Origin: Ferrimicrobium sp. | GTDB lineage: Bacteria; Actinomycetota; Acidimicrobiia; Acidimicrobiales; Acidimicrobiaceae | NCBI RefSeq assembly: GCF_027319265.1 | Contig: NZ_DAHVNP010000065.1 | Location: forward strand, 1-50,059 | Direction: 5' to 3' | DNA length: 50,059 nt | The notes under the pieces: model-generated | The model's input: the letters and a program-made list of their open reading frames with translations, nothing else | Database searches by the model: none | What the model was told of the DNA's origin: nothing | Program-made: the position numbers and the translations under genes | Shown here: one piece after another, positions 30,992 through 38,078 of the stretch | Layout: each line of letters starts with the position of its first letter | Numbering within the stretch: position 1 is the stretch's first letter

Positions 30992-31004
30992 GCGTGCACC
31001 TGAA

Positions 31005-31039
31005 TGAGGGGCTCAACTCGTTACGAGTTGGGCCCCTCA
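31005..31039 (-). terminator. 16-bp hairpin terminator after the ferritin-like operon
   Basis: The two arms 31005-31020 and 31024-31039 are complementary over 16 positions with a single non-Watson-Crick position and a 3-nt loop (TTA). It begins 34 nt after the end of the ferritin-like gene in the direction of transcription. Only TTC follows, so it lacks a U-tract, as is common in actinobacteria. Confidence 0.65.
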
Positions 31040-31072
31040 CCGGCCATCTCTACGCAAAGCGCGTGCCGCCAA

Positions 31073-31861
31073 TCAGAGCTTGGTGTAGTCCGATGTCGGT
31101 CGCGCCAACGTAGTGGGCTCGAAGGCGTTCGGCACCGGATAGGTGCCCAAGATAAAGTTGAGAATCGCTGAGTGCTGCATCTCGACTGGCTCGATGCTCG
31201 CTGCGGTCCGAATCGCGATGGGTTGGGCGAGGACTCCGATCGCCGAGAGATAGGTCTCCCCGGCGATATTCTCAATCTCTAGCGCCAGCTTTGCGAGATC
31301 AACGGTATTCGTTACCGAGGCAAAGTCCTTGTTCACCACTGGCGTGAGTACCGGATCCGTTGCCGTCACCGCCGACTTGCCAGCGGAACGCAGAATCGCA
31401 TTCCATGCAGCTCCATGTTCCTTGTGCTGGGCGCGCGCCGTCTCGGCGAAGACCACCACCGCAGGAGGTACTGCACCTAACTTGCCCGCCTTGGCGGCGT
31501 TGATACCTGCCGTATAGGCATAGACCCCAAGGTTCTCGAGGCTCGCCGCTAAGGCAGCCACATGAAGATCGGTCAGCGTGGAGGCAGATAGCTCAGGAGC
31601 GCTGGAAGAGGAGGAGACCTTCGTCGCCGAGGAACTCGAACCACAGGCCGCAAGCAGCGCACCTGCGCCGACGGTAGCACCCACTCCGAGGAGAAAGGTA
31701 CGTCGATTGAGACGAGAACGAGCCTCGACCTGTGATCGCTCTTGGGCGACCTCCTCGGCCCAATCCTTGGCACCCTCCTGGAGCGCTGGCAGGCTCACGT
31801 CGTGGTGAATCTCGTCAAGTTCAACGATCTTTGCATTGAGTTCAGCCTCACTGATCTCCAT
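31073..31861 (-). CDS. Exported ferritin-like domain lipoprotein
   Basis: 262 residues. A Tat-type signal (LNRRTFLLGVG, Arg pair at 53-54) runs into a lipobox LAAC (Cys about 73), so the mature protein is probably lipid-anchored outside. Before it lies an unusual 50-residue acidic tail. The four-helix ferritin-like domain (about 92-240) shows a diiron ligand set: Glu in ASLENLG, Glu and His in AETARAQHKEH, Glu in EIENIAGETY, and Glu/His in EPVEMQHSAIL. Function may be iron or oxygen-radical handling; it is unproven. The ATG at 31861 has GGGAG upstream. It lies 44 nt after a paralogue and downstream of a cupredoxin on the same strand. Confidence 0.78.
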   Translation of the reverse strand: MEISEAELNAKIVELDEIHHDVSLPALQEGAKDWAEEVAQERSQVEARSRLNRRTFLLGVGATVGAGALLAACGSSSSATKVSSSSSAPELSASTLTDLHVAALAASLENLGVYAYTAGINAAKAGKLGAVPPAVVVFAETARAQHKEHGAAWNAILRSAGKSAVTATDPVLTPVVNKDFASVTNTVDLAKLALEIENIAGETYLSAIGVLAQPIAIRTAASIEPVEMQHSAILNFILGTYPVPNAFEPTTLARPTSDYTKL

Positions 31862-31905
31862 GGTGGCTCCCTTTCTGTTCCTTTGATTCTCTCGATTGCG
31901 GTGTA

Positions 31906-32766
31906 TCACTTGACAGCTCCTTCCATGAGAGGACGAGCGTTAACGGTTGGGTAAAAGGCGTCGGGGAAGCCGATGGAGCCGGCAGCAGCGGGTAGTGCAG
32001 CCGCGTTGGGTGGCAACGCAATCAGCTGTGGAGCATTGCCCTTCAGCAACGCCTGCACAGCGAGCAGGATCGCGGCATGTTGTGCCTCAACACCCATCAC
32101 CGACGCCGTCAAGGTGCGCGCACTCGACGAGGTGATCACCCCTGTCGCCTTCACATAGGTCTCTGCTGCAGCTTGCTCGAGCTCCAGCGCCAAGGCAACC
32201 ACACCCTCAGGACCAGTGATTTTGGCCACCGCCGCCTTCACGACGGGAACGAGCGCGGGATCCGCACTGTTTTGCGGGGTTCCGCCAAGCGACTTGACGG
32301 CGGCGTTGAAGGCGCTCAGATGCTGCATGTGCTGGGCCATAGTGGTCTCGGCAAAGGCCTTGATCACGCCGTTGGCACTACTTCCACCGATATAGGGGAG
32401 CGTGAGTGCGGTCTTGTAGGTGTTGATGGCCAAGACCTCGATCGAGGCGTTGCTCTGGAGAATCTGGACATCAGTCGGGGTCGAGGCAAACGCTGGTGTC
32501 GACTCAAGGCTAAAGAGCGCCGCCCCAAAGCCTGCCGCCGCAAGAGCCCCTGCACCGAAGAGTCCAGTGCGCAACATACTTCGGCGTTCCTCGGCAACAG
32601 CCTCAGCCTCATAGGGATCGAGTTCCCCACGGCTGCGTAACTCCTGTCCGAGTTCGACGGTCTCTGCGAGACCCTGGTGAGCCTGTGCCATGGAATCCGA
32701 CTGCAGATCAGATGATTGTTCGATAAGTTCATTCAATGGACGTGGATCAAAGGCTTCTTTGGTCAC
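31906..32766 (-). CDS. Exported ferritin-like domain protein
   Basis: 286 residues. An acidic N-tail of about 60 residues precedes RRSMLRTGLFGAG (Arg pair 61-62), a Tat-like hydrophobic segment, and a probable signal peptidase site at AFA-ST near 94; there is no lipobox, unlike its neighbour. The ferritin-like domain carries the same ligand pattern: Glu in NASIEVL, Glu/His in AETTMAQHMQH (about 140-149), Glu in LELEQAAAETY and Glu/His in GVEAQHAAIL. The GTG at 32766 has AAAAGGAG 6 nt upstream; an earlier in-frame start would run into the cupredoxin gene and is rejected. Probably co-transcribed with the cupredoxin (gap about 71 nt). Confidence 0.76.
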   Translation of the reverse strand: MTKEAFDPRPLNELIEQSSDLQSDSMAQAHQGLAETVELGQELRSRGELDPYEAEAVAEERRSMLRTGLFGAGALAAAGFGAALFSLESTPAFASTPTDVQILQSNASIEVLAINTYKTALTLPYIGGSSANGVIKAFAETTMAQHMQHLSAFNAAVKSLGGTPQNSADPALVPVVKAAVAKITGPEGVVALALELEQAAAETYVKATGVITSSSARTLTASVMGVEAQHAAILLAVQALLKGNAPQLIALPPNAAALPAAAGSIGFPDAFYPTVNARPLMEGAVK

Positions 32767-32837
32767 TATTTTCTCCTTTTGTGAGACGATTTCTAGAACG
32801 AATAGCGTTACAATTGCTGCGTATCTAAGGCACCTCC

Positions 32838-33224
32838 CTACTTCACAACAACAAGAGTTCCGGTCATAAACTGATGAATAAGACATAGAAATGGATACGT
32901 ACCTGGCTTGTTATGGATAATGAAATGCACGGTGTGCCCCGGTGGGATCACCCCAGTATTGAAGCTACGATTGTCGGCAGTAAAGGTGTGCCCAACCGAA
33001 TCCTCATTGTGGATGATGATCTCCTCACCTTGGTGGACGACCACTTCATCGGGGATAAATTGGAAATTACTGATCACAATGGTGGCCGACTTCCCCGATG
33101 CAGATGGACCAGGATGCAGATTCGATGCACCGACACTTGCAGCACTCGAACCGCAAGCCGCAAGGACTAACCCTCCCAAGAGTAGGACGATTGCACCGAA
33201 GATCATTACTCGAAGTTGTCTCAT
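32838..33224 (-). CDS. Cupredoxin-domain lipoprotein (blue copper-like)
   Basis: 128 residues. Lipobox LAAC gives a lipidated Cys at about 24. The cupredoxin fold follows (VISNFQFIPDEVVVHQGEEI, HNEDSVGHTF, VHFIIHNKPGTYPFLC), with candidate type 1 copper ligands His79, Cys114, His117 and Met120. The Cys-x2-His-x2-Met spacing is tighter than in plastocyanin. Such proteins shuttle electrons or protect against metals outside the membrane; in acidophilic iron oxidisers related proteins (for example rusticyanin) carry electrons from Fe(II). It is first gene of a run with two ferritin-like proteins. ATG start with no clear Shine-Dalgarno, lying inside the loop of a perfect inverted repeat. Confidence 0.82.
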   Translation of the reverse strand: MRQLRVMIFGAIVLLLGGLVLAACGSSAASVGASNLHPGPSASGKSATIVISNFQFIPDEVVVHQGEEIIIHNEDSVGHTFTADNRSFNTGVIPPGHTVHFIIHNKPGTYPFLCLIHQFMTGTLVVVK

Positions 33225-33238
33225 GTTAGAACTTCGAG
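33209..33238 (-). promoter_or_regulatory. Perfect 9-bp inverted repeat around the cupredoxin start codon
   Basis: CTCGAAGTT (33209-33217) and AACTTCGAG (33230-33238) are exact complements with a 12-nt loop that contains the ATG of the cupredoxin gene. In DNA it could be an operator; in mRNA it would form a hairpin presenting or hiding the start codon. No known regulator consensus is recognised. Confidence 0.55.
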
Positions 33239-33255
33239 ACCACCACAATATCTGG

Positions 33256-33261
33256 ATTGTA
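33256..33261 (-). promoter_or_regulatory. -10 box TACAAT upstream of the cupredoxin gene
   Basis: TACAAT on the minus strand lies 31 nt before the ATG. The predicted start of transcription would be near 33249, just upstream of the inverted repeat. No good -35 is present, which could mean an activator or an alternative sigma factor. Confidence 0.35.
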
Positions 33262-36308: not shown

Positions 36309-38078
36309 TTAGAACCTGCCCGAGACTTCACGGAGATGCAGTGTCGCTGACGTGCGAACCCAATCCGTTGCATCCCCACTCCGTCCATCCCTCCAGTCGG
36401 CAAGTGCGCGGGTGAGCAGAGCAAAATTCGGTGTTCCAAGCCCCGTCGCCAGGCTGAAGCGGCCACCCGCCAGGAATCGACCTGGGTGGAGATGCCGAAA
36501 ATCGTTACCTCCCCGGCGCACCGGGAGGAAGACCCGACCATGATTGGAAAGGCGATAGAGCCAAGGGTTGATGAGTCCGAGTCTTGCGGAGGCATGGGCC
36601 TCGACCTCGGCGAGACCAGCTGCGAAGACGGATGCCGCCAGGCTCGTACCCCCCAACAAGGTCCATCCGCCTCTCGGTACATCGATCTCTCCACCAACCG
36701 CTATCATCGCGACATCGGGAACAAGCCGGCAACCCGCCCTGAGATGACAGAGTTGGTGGACTCCTCTTACACCAGCGTAGACACCGTGCTGGTAGGGCGG
36801 CTCGACAAAGACCCGAGAGAGCCCCCCACCGCTCGCGCCAGCGTAAGTCTGATCATTCCACACCCAAGGTCGAGCGGCGGGGCCTAGTGGGGTGGCAAAC
36901 TGCTCGCCACCGACCGCAGTCACCATCGGCTGCGAGGCAGGATCGTCGACCGAGAGCCCATCTCCACCCCTCGTGGCGAGACAATCCGATGACCCATCAT
37001 CACCACTCGCCGCCACTACCGTCTGTCCCTGCAGTGTGGCCTGTGCAAAGGCCAGCTCTTCGATCGTGAGCTGTTGGGGTGGGGTATCGCTCTCGCAGGA
37101 TCCCCACGTGGTCAGAAGAATGCTGGCGCGGTCCTGACTCACCATGCGCAGGTACAACGCATCAGCATCACCAGCACTCGCGGTATAGACCAGCAGATGT
37201 GCCCCAGGAGCGTAGGCGATCAACGTCTCGATGTCAAGTGCCATCTCCTCAAGGTGCGCATAGCTGGTGTTGTCGGAGCCGCCATCGACTGCAACGGTCG
37301 CTAGATGTACTGGTTCTCCCAGACAGCGGGCGAAGCGAGCGATACTCTGATCCAACGAGGGTGTCACGCTCCCAAACTCGGCGATCCCGACGGTGACCGG
37401 GTGCGGTAGTCGTGCCCGCGACAGGTGATAATACTTCGCAACTACCGCTGGCGAAAAGCCACCGCTCGGCGTGTTCTTTTGACTGAGTCCAGAACAGGTG
37501 AGCGATCTGTTCGCTCGCACACCTTTGGGGGTCACCGGGAAGTAACCATTGGCAAAGAGGCCAGTGACCCCATCGACAAGGTCATCGATCGCTTCGGGCA
37601 GCTTGGGGTAGGCGTCGGCGACAACGACACTCCTACCCCCCGAAAGATGTACTTGGTCAAAGGCGACCCCGAGGGCAGCTGATGCATCGGCTACCGTACC
37701 CGCGACGGGCATCACCAAACCACCAGCCCAAGGAGCTCCCGTCACCAAGCCGTAGTCCTGGAAGTAGTCACTGACAAGGTCTTGCTTGGCCGGTGTCGGA
37801 GCATAGCGCTGACCAAATTGCGCAGGGGTAAGGTAGCTTCCTGGTGGCTGCTGCGAGCGGAGCCAGGCAGCGGCGAAGAGCTGACGTTGATCCCGCGGTT
37901 TGAGTACGACGTCGAACTGTACCGTCATCGTCCCAGAAGCTCCCCGTTGGTTGATCAATTCCATCGCAGGATGTGCATGGGGAAGGAGGATGAAGCCGAT
38001 GCCGAGCAAGGAGGCAAGAAAGAACCGCACGCAAGCCGTGACCGGCCCGCCCTTGGCCTGTTTCCTCTGCATCATCAT
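36309..38078 (-). CDS. Sedolisin (S53) acid serine-carboxyl peptidase
   Basis: Secreted endopeptidase active at low pH. 589 residues: signal-like hydrophobic stretch at about 15-36, a pro-kumamolisin activation domain (about 45-190), then the catalytic domain. The Glu-x3-Asp pair is Glu278/Asp282 in EEMALDIE, the oxyanion Asp is in AASGDDGSSD (about 361), and the nucleophile Ser479 lies in GGTSLAAS. The family's usual SGTSxxxP ends in Pro; here Ser replaces it. A C-terminal SLATGLGTPN matches the Ca-binding region. It transcribes towards the cob genes and is divergent from rmuC. Acid activity fits the proposed acidophilic host. Confidence 0.85.
   Translation of the reverse strand: MMMQRKQAKGGPVTACVRFFLASLLGIGFILLPHAHPAMELINQRGASGTMTVQFDVVLKPRDQRQLFAAAWLRSQQPPGSYLTPAQFGQRYAPTPAKQDLVSDYFQDYGLVTGAPWAGGLVMPVAGTVADASAALGVAFDQVHLSGGRSVVVADAYPKLPEAIDDLVDGVTGLFANGYFPVTPKGVRANRSLTCSGLSQKNTPSGGFSPAVVAKYYHLSRARLPHPVTVGIAEFGSVTPSLDQSIARFARCLGEPVHLATVAVDGGSDNTSYAHLEEMALDIETLIAYAPGAHLLVYTASAGDADALYLRMVSQDRASILLTTWGSCESDTPPQQLTIEELAFAQATLQGQTVVAASGDDGSSDCLATRGGDGLSVDDPASQPMVTAVGGEQFATPLGPAARPWVWNDQTYAGASGGGLSRVFVEPPYQHGVYAGVRGVHQLCHLRAGCRLVPDVAMIAVGGEIDVPRGGWTLLGGTSLAASVFAAGLAEVEAHASARLGLINPWLYRLSNHGRVFLPVRRGGNDFRHLHPGRFLAGGRFSLATGLGTPNFALLTRALADWRDGRSGDATDWVRTSATLHLREVSGRF

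Follow-up and report, generated by a model that had tools for sequence, protein, structure and literature searches.

A conserved module of a cupredoxin and two Ferritin_2 proteins in Ferrimicrobium: a candidate exported di-metal redox system with SigK-type promoter motif

What a cupredoxin lipoprotein and two ferritin-like proteins might do together is the question raised by three genes on the minus strand of a 50,059-nucleotide stretch of Ferrimicrobium sp. DNA (contig NZ_DAHVNP010000065.1, assembly GCF_027319265.1), the whole of which was analysed and is here called the window. The genes are CUP (33224-32838), FERA (32766-31906) and FERB (31861-31073). A preliminary description had seen in them a metal-redox operon, and both the arrangement of three genes on one strand and the kinds of protein, one cupredoxin lipoprotein and two Ferritin_2 proteins according to Pfam, are borne out. 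The intergenic distances given there, 71 and 44 nt, likewise hold with FERA starting at the GTG at 32766 and FERB at the ATG at 31861; these are the preferred starts, each preceded by a GGAG-like ribosome site (AGGAG and GGGAG respectively). By Pfam, the trio is flanked on its 5′ side by cobalamin genes of the cobD, cobS and cobU types and on its 3′ side by genes for an S9 peptidase and a GH30-like protein. A Pro-kumamolisin/subtilase-type peptidase is encoded beyond the cobalamin genes, further upstream (36309-38078; Pfam), and relatives of its gene are found near module copies in six loci, four belonging to the same genus. A hairpin of 17 pairs (31003-31041, minus strand) in the gap that separates FERB from the S9 peptidase gene is a possible transcription end or processing site; its 103-nt stretch has a z of -3.2, equalled by 3 of 200 shuffles. 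While the hairpin is strong, to call it a strong terminator, as had been done, is an overstatement, because it has no T run and is not among the sites called by a terminator scan.

The first gene encodes a predicted type 1 cupredoxin of 128 amino acids (Cupredoxin_1 PF13473, E 2.6e-15; Copper-bind PF00127, E 3.1e-5), the only Cupredoxin_1 match in the genome. Its putative copper ligands H79, C114, H117 and M120, as well as the lipobox cysteine C24, show no variation across an alignment of 14 relatives, the window's protein among them. FERA and FERB, the only Ferritin_2 (PF13668) matches of the genome, clearly pass the family cut-off of 24.7 bits with 58.6 (E 9.8e-16) and 53.3 bits (E 4.1e-14) respectively.

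Is the trio more than an accident of neighbourhood? Among 75 distinct related loci (identical ones merged, the window and locus L174 excluded), 11 were too short to judge; in each of the 64 with enough flank FERA and FERB are adjacent, and in 48 a cupredoxin gene adjoins them. The order is CUP-FERA-FERB in 29 and FERA-FERB-CUP in 19 loci, while no cupredoxin was detected in 16, a maximum, as the profile used for it was built from the family; in L107 the cupredoxin match lies on the opposite strand. A chance neighbourhood is thus rejected, and the trio is a real, conserved module. Unlinking in relatives, which the preliminary description had named as refuting its idea, did not appear: linkage is kept although other neighbours differ between genomes, and the set recurs, as FERA-FERB-cupredoxin, on a Streptomycetaceae linear plasmid.

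Module relatives are found in many acid-habitat and soil bacteria. The FERB profile identified 73 named loci, mostly in uncultured actinobacterial bins, many of them titled Acidimicrobiaceae or Acidimicrobiales, and including Ferrithrix thermotolerans and Aciditerrimonas ferrireducens; it matched in 25 of 296 sampled genomes of the class and in 7 of 396 of the phylum, all seven in the window's order. On viral contigs no FERB relative was confirmed. Three module-bearing loci titled Acidobacteriota or Saccharibacteria (L064, L082 and L097) group among actinobacterial copies and are probably mislabelled or misbinned. Our literature search, which took in few subscription papers, found no paper recognisable as dealing with this trio, weak evidence of absence, and PMC4417700 mentions no such genes for F. 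acidiphilum.

In a tree of 71 FERA, 71 FERB and 10 outside sequences, FERB forms one clade (100/100) with FERA on the other side, which indicates that the two part at one old split; the tree carries a long-branch warning, and FERA as a single group is unresolved in it (one change in 24% of bootstrap trees). Of 21 loci in which CUP comes last (20 and L174), 19 group together in both halves of the tree, along with L104, where no CUP was detected, and L065 and L174 are placed elsewhere, so the position of CUP has changed rarely, but more than once.

The metal site itself is distinctive. The preliminary description had attributed a diiron ligand pattern to both proteins, but the canonical arrangement E..ExxH..E..ExxH is found in neither, as helix 2 holds HxxH rather than the standard ExxH. 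The predicted site consists of E111, H147, H150, E198, E228 and H231 in FERA (287-amino-acid reading from 32769) and of E110, H147, H150, E198, E228 and H231 in FERB (263-amino-acid reading from 31864), with the HxxH encoded at 32320-32331 and 31415-31426 respectively, both on the minus strand. In an alignment of 71 pairs, made up of 69 loci, the window and L174 (13 duplicate loci were left out, as were those where the partners did not both exceed 150 bits), all six positions are invariant in all aligned rows of both proteins (70 or 71 rows for FERA), and helix 2 reads HxxH in 70 of 70 FERA rows, one further row being gapped, and in 71 of 71 FERB rows; an alanine three residues past the helix-3 glutamate is also invariant in both. 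With histidine in place of the glutamate that ferritin-like sites usually have in helix 2, each protein would bury a two-metal site of three glutamates and three histidines. Among aligned relatives, those from Thermus, haloarchaea and Miltoncostaea have glutamate at the first helix-2 position, as is also read in the T. aquaticus and T. oshimai sequences, while those from Variovorax, Cupriavidus, Acidithiobacillus, Nostoc and Streptomycetaceae have histidine.

Adjacency in pairs, together with a helix-2 HxxH, is also seen among more distant Ferritin_2 genes of the class (L138, L140, L141, L143 and L148). A further tandem subgroup (L151, L152, L136 and L137) has in one partner an aspartate for the helix-4 glutamate (DMQH- or DAKH-like), and three of its loci (L151, L152 and L137) have lost the second histidine of helix 2; the subgroup provides a natural set of site variants. 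Csp1 exemplifies a type of copper storage protein; storage of this kind was considered and rejected for the module, as the window's FERA has no cysteine and the only one in FERB is that of the lipobox.

With what such a site might exchange electrons is suggested by relatives outside the Acidimicrobiia, for which 14 of 31 plasmid records were opened, the remainder including most Thermus and several haloarchaeal ones. In all five Burkholderiales plasmid loci opened (Cupriavidus, three Variovorax and Paraburkholderia), the gene for an RR-bearing HxxH protein is directly followed by one for a CxxCH protein, which matches Pfam Cytochrom_C in Cupriavidus and is annotated as cytochrome c in Variovorax RA8; the three Variovorax loci also have a sigma factor upstream of the Ferritin_2 gene. 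Within 1.5 kb, neither a cupredoxin nor a CxxCH protein was detected beside eight ExxH-type proteins from seven loci, nor a carrier at the HxxH loci of Acidithiobacillus and Nostoc, in a scan that covered CxxCH proteins below 400 amino acids on the strand of the ferritin gene and that misses the cytochrome visible at locus L213. Two unrelated carriers beside one type of site favour electron transfer over hydrolysis, in a sample that is small outside the Acidimicrobiia. The earlier idea of a redox operon gains from the cytochrome c found in the carrier's place; iron oxidation or storage as its specific role does not.

That specific role, proposed at the outset for the cell surface, agrees poorly with the distribution of the genes. 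Though 6 of 7 genomes of the genus have Ferritin_2 genes, only 18 of 42 family genomes do (9 of the 20 that are at least 90% complete; the window's genome is counted in each, and some genomes are incomplete), 14 of these 18 with a cupredoxin gene directly before FERA. Genus member G002 keeps the S9 peptidase and GH30-like genes, but the 1.27 kb ahead of its peptidase gene are devoid of the trio and it yields no Ferritin_2 match; some relatives are bins titled bog or palsa, and the ligand set is unlike that of ferroxidase centres. An alternative is a surface metal buffer, in which FERA and FERB would hold iron or copper, by sequestration or ferroxidase-type detoxification, under acid Fe/Cu stress and CUP would be a copper shuttle or sink. 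A ferritin-like fold, three extra-cytoplasmic metal-type proteins in a single operon, named relatives that include Ferrimicrobium, Ferrithrix and Aciditerrimonas, and an iron ABC transporter permease annotated in the Thermus thermophilus HB8 locus speak for such a buffer, yet HxxH departs from the usual ferroxidase ligands, no Ferritin_2 gene was detected in 24 of the 42 family genomes, some of them incomplete, and cytochrome c, which occupies the carrier's place in Burkholderiales, would be no substitute for a copper shuttle. We regard a buffer as unlikely.

The FERB model (mean pLDDT 75) is a four-helix bundle which superimposes on mini-bacterioferritin 9qq5 with Z 17.0 (rmsd 1.7 over 133 residues) and on RvFeMP 8w9k with Z 15.5 (rmsd 3.0 over 148 residues); the predicted fold is like that of bacterioferritin and Dps. 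Foldseek searches with this model were weak (best E 0.017, none below 0.001), and sequence searches of the PDB found no convincing relative (best E 0.4 for FERA and 0.059 for the FERB alignment); for FERA no fold is claimed owing to a weak model (pLDDT 62). The likeness to RvFeMP brings in a hydrolytic alternative, as RvFeMP-1, RvFeMP-2 and DRB0118, all of PF13668, are metal-dependent phosphatases according to PMC11616004, where inactivation of DRB0118 is reported to lower desiccation survival. FERA and FERB might accordingly be exported phosphatases for stress or desiccation tolerance, with CUP serving something else, and phosphatase is the only activity assigned to the widespread, little characterised Ferritin_2 family in the parts of the literature consulted. 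Family membership and the structural match speak for such enzymes. The RvFeMP-type ligands, a glutamate plus ExxH for M1 and the Glu/Asp set of RvFeMP-1 for M2, are nevertheless not those of FERA and FERB: the metal ligand Glu90 is replaced by histidine and the column of the catalytic Asp135, which DRB0118 also does without, is an invariant alanine, equivalences that are drawn through ExxH relatives as RvFeMP itself is not in the alignment. RvFeMP-1 moreover has very low activity in acid and crystallises metal-free at pH 4 (PMC11616004), whereas FERA and FERB should face acid, and the electron carriers adjoining HxxH proteins would be left unexplained. Because of the differing ligand set and the near inactivity of RvFeMP-1 in acid, we do not class FERA and FERB with these phosphatases, and consider phosphatase activity quite improbable.

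Both ferritin-like proteins carry a conserved region about 50-70 residues long ahead of a hydrophobic segment. FERB combines an RRxF/L motif (RRTFL in the window) with this segment, as expected for a Tat substrate, and has a lipobox (LAAC). The RR motif was found in 67 of 71 FERB proteins and the lipobox in 43 of 71, counts which are approximate because mechanically called ORFs in G+C-rich loci often start too early; R54, R55, F57 and L58 are invariant in 17 of 17. FERA, with an AxA-like site at the end of its hydrophobic segment, lacks this signature as a family: RR occurs in 11 of 71 (subject to the same early starts), with no invariant RR among 16 aligned, even though the window's own FERA has one (ERRSML) before the segment. 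Of the two Tat-type proteins described previously, FERB thus retains this designation, but FERA does not. FERB would be exported by Tat in a folded and perhaps metal-loaded state, and may carry FERA along.

The earlier reading had passed over the relatives outside the Acidimicrobiia, and also a regulatory link: 36 of 64 loci have, divergent to the module, a pair of genes for a SigK-type ECF sigma and an RskA-type anti-sigma factor (Pfam on examples). Thermus, Acidithiobacillus and Nostoc likewise have sigma/anti-sigma pairs adjoining Ferritin_2 genes. All three Thermus plasmid loci opened (L176, L215 and L216) combine sigma, anti-sigma and RR-bearing Ferritin_2 genes; a CHRD-domain gene comes after the Ferritin_2 gene in T. 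oshimai and also in T. aquaticus, where a peroxiredoxin-like gene on the opposite strand stands between the two. On Nostoc linckia NIES-25 plasmid2 (L183), an HxxH Ferritin_2 gene is beside an ECF sigma gene and one for an anti-sigma factor of the ChrR type (cupin), a type known from singlet-oxygen responses.

In the window, the promoter-like motif CAATCC-N17-CGAA (33233-33259, minus strand) ends 8 nt from the CUP ATG, a spacing that suggests a leaderless or nearly leaderless mRNA. The mycobacterial SigK consensus is CCATCC-N16/17-CGAAT, which the module motif resembles in sequence. Upstream of the module, ATCC-N16-18-CGAA is present in 53 of 69 regions, the window included, against 1.15 expected from shuffles by an approximate shuffler; seven control patterns gave 0-5. 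In reverse complement, the orientation that would suit the divergent sigma gene, the count is 25. The strict motif is missing from the remaining 16 of the 69 regions, several with a linked sigma gene, including Ferrithrix (L048). Among six genus members, whose upstream DNA has diverged, the main conserved blocks are CAATCCA and CGAA. The exact motif, at 12 sites in the genome against none for the reversed pattern, is not specific on its own, since 11 of these lie inside mechanically called ORFs and this one alone outside; counted over the window alone, a looser pattern occurs about as often as chance predicts (7 sites against 6.7).

The only RskA_C match detected in the window's genome is beside a SigK-like gene on another contig, so that regulation of the trio would act in trans. 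Autoregulation of this sigma gene is unsupported, as none of the three looser motif matches near it (1.9 expected) is in promoter position. A thiol switch in the sigma factor appears unlikely, as 28 of 43 linked sigma proteins below 240 amino acids (duplicate records included) have no cysteine; a cysteine-less Nocardia SigK is active without RskA activation according to PMC7509140.

A small operon, lipoproteins and a stress-type sigma factor might also be expected if the proteins served to assemble, or to control the quality of, some other exported metalloprotein, CUP being the donor of metal or electrons, but no client gene recurs, the most frequent extra neighbour cluster being found in 13 of 78 loci, and we think this very unlikely. 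The reading that we prefer, tentatively and as somewhat short of an even chance, is that of an exported, paired di-metal redox module that brings its own electron carrier and answers to a stress-type sigma factor. Through an ECF sigma switch of the SigK type the cell would place a three-part redox module outside the membrane, in which FERA and FERB, old paralogues, would act as one unit, probably a heteromer, and CUP would be their dedicated carrier, as the c-type cytochrome may be in Burkholderiales. Its most likely task would be defence against stress at the cell surface, by reduction of an oxidant (peroxide or oxygen) or by oxidation of a metal ion. Of the readings weighed here, a putative redox role is the best supported; the invariant ligand change, the lineage-variable carrier neighbour and the sigma switch make it a specific, testable hypothesis. 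More speculative, and rather doubtful, is the idea that exported di-metal redox enzymes sharing a three-His/three-Glu site form a whole class, which would draw on interchangeable dedicated carriers, cupredoxin or cytochrome c, and be switched by ECF sigma factors; in the Acidimicrobiia it would be represented by an obligate FERA/FERB pair with a Tat-type FERB carrying a mostly RR-less FERA, an acid-working surface counterpart of rubrerythrin. Under the redox reading, SigK/RskA-type regulators would gain a metal-redox cargo, and Tat co-export of an RR-poor partner a test case.

Among known systems, the RvFeMP/DRB0118 phosphatases share with the module the Ferritin_2 family, the four-helix fold, export and a link to stress, but FERA and FERB differ by HxxH for ExxH and alanine at the Asp135 column, as tandem paralogues, by their electron-carrier partner and by their acid habitat. 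The mycobacterial mpt83-sigK-rskA cassette likewise ties SigK/RskA to exported proteins and has a conserved SigK-type site, its cargo being MPT70/MPT83 rather than a metal redox set, as described in PMC7509140. T. thermophilus HB8, where the sigma/anti-sigma pair is named sigE-TTHB212 (PMC4153023), resembles many module loci in having an ECF sigma and an RskA_C-type anti-sigma gene with an RR-bearing Ferritin_2 gene behind, but this is single, of the ExxH type and with no carrier detected within 1.5 kb. The Burkholderiales pair of Ferritin_2 and cytochrome c shares HxxH, the RR motif and the carrier as next gene, and differs in its one Ferritin_2 gene and its haem instead of copper carrier. 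In rubrerythrin with rubredoxin, a ferritin-like di-metal protein also works with a small electron carrier, there cytoplasmic, with an ExxH site and an iron-sulphur carrier. FERA and FERB have neither that ExxH diiron site nor a Pfam match to a rubredoxin domain, and the analogy is one of working, with no membership claimed, by which the module would in principle be a surface counterpart of rubrerythrin with rubredoxin.
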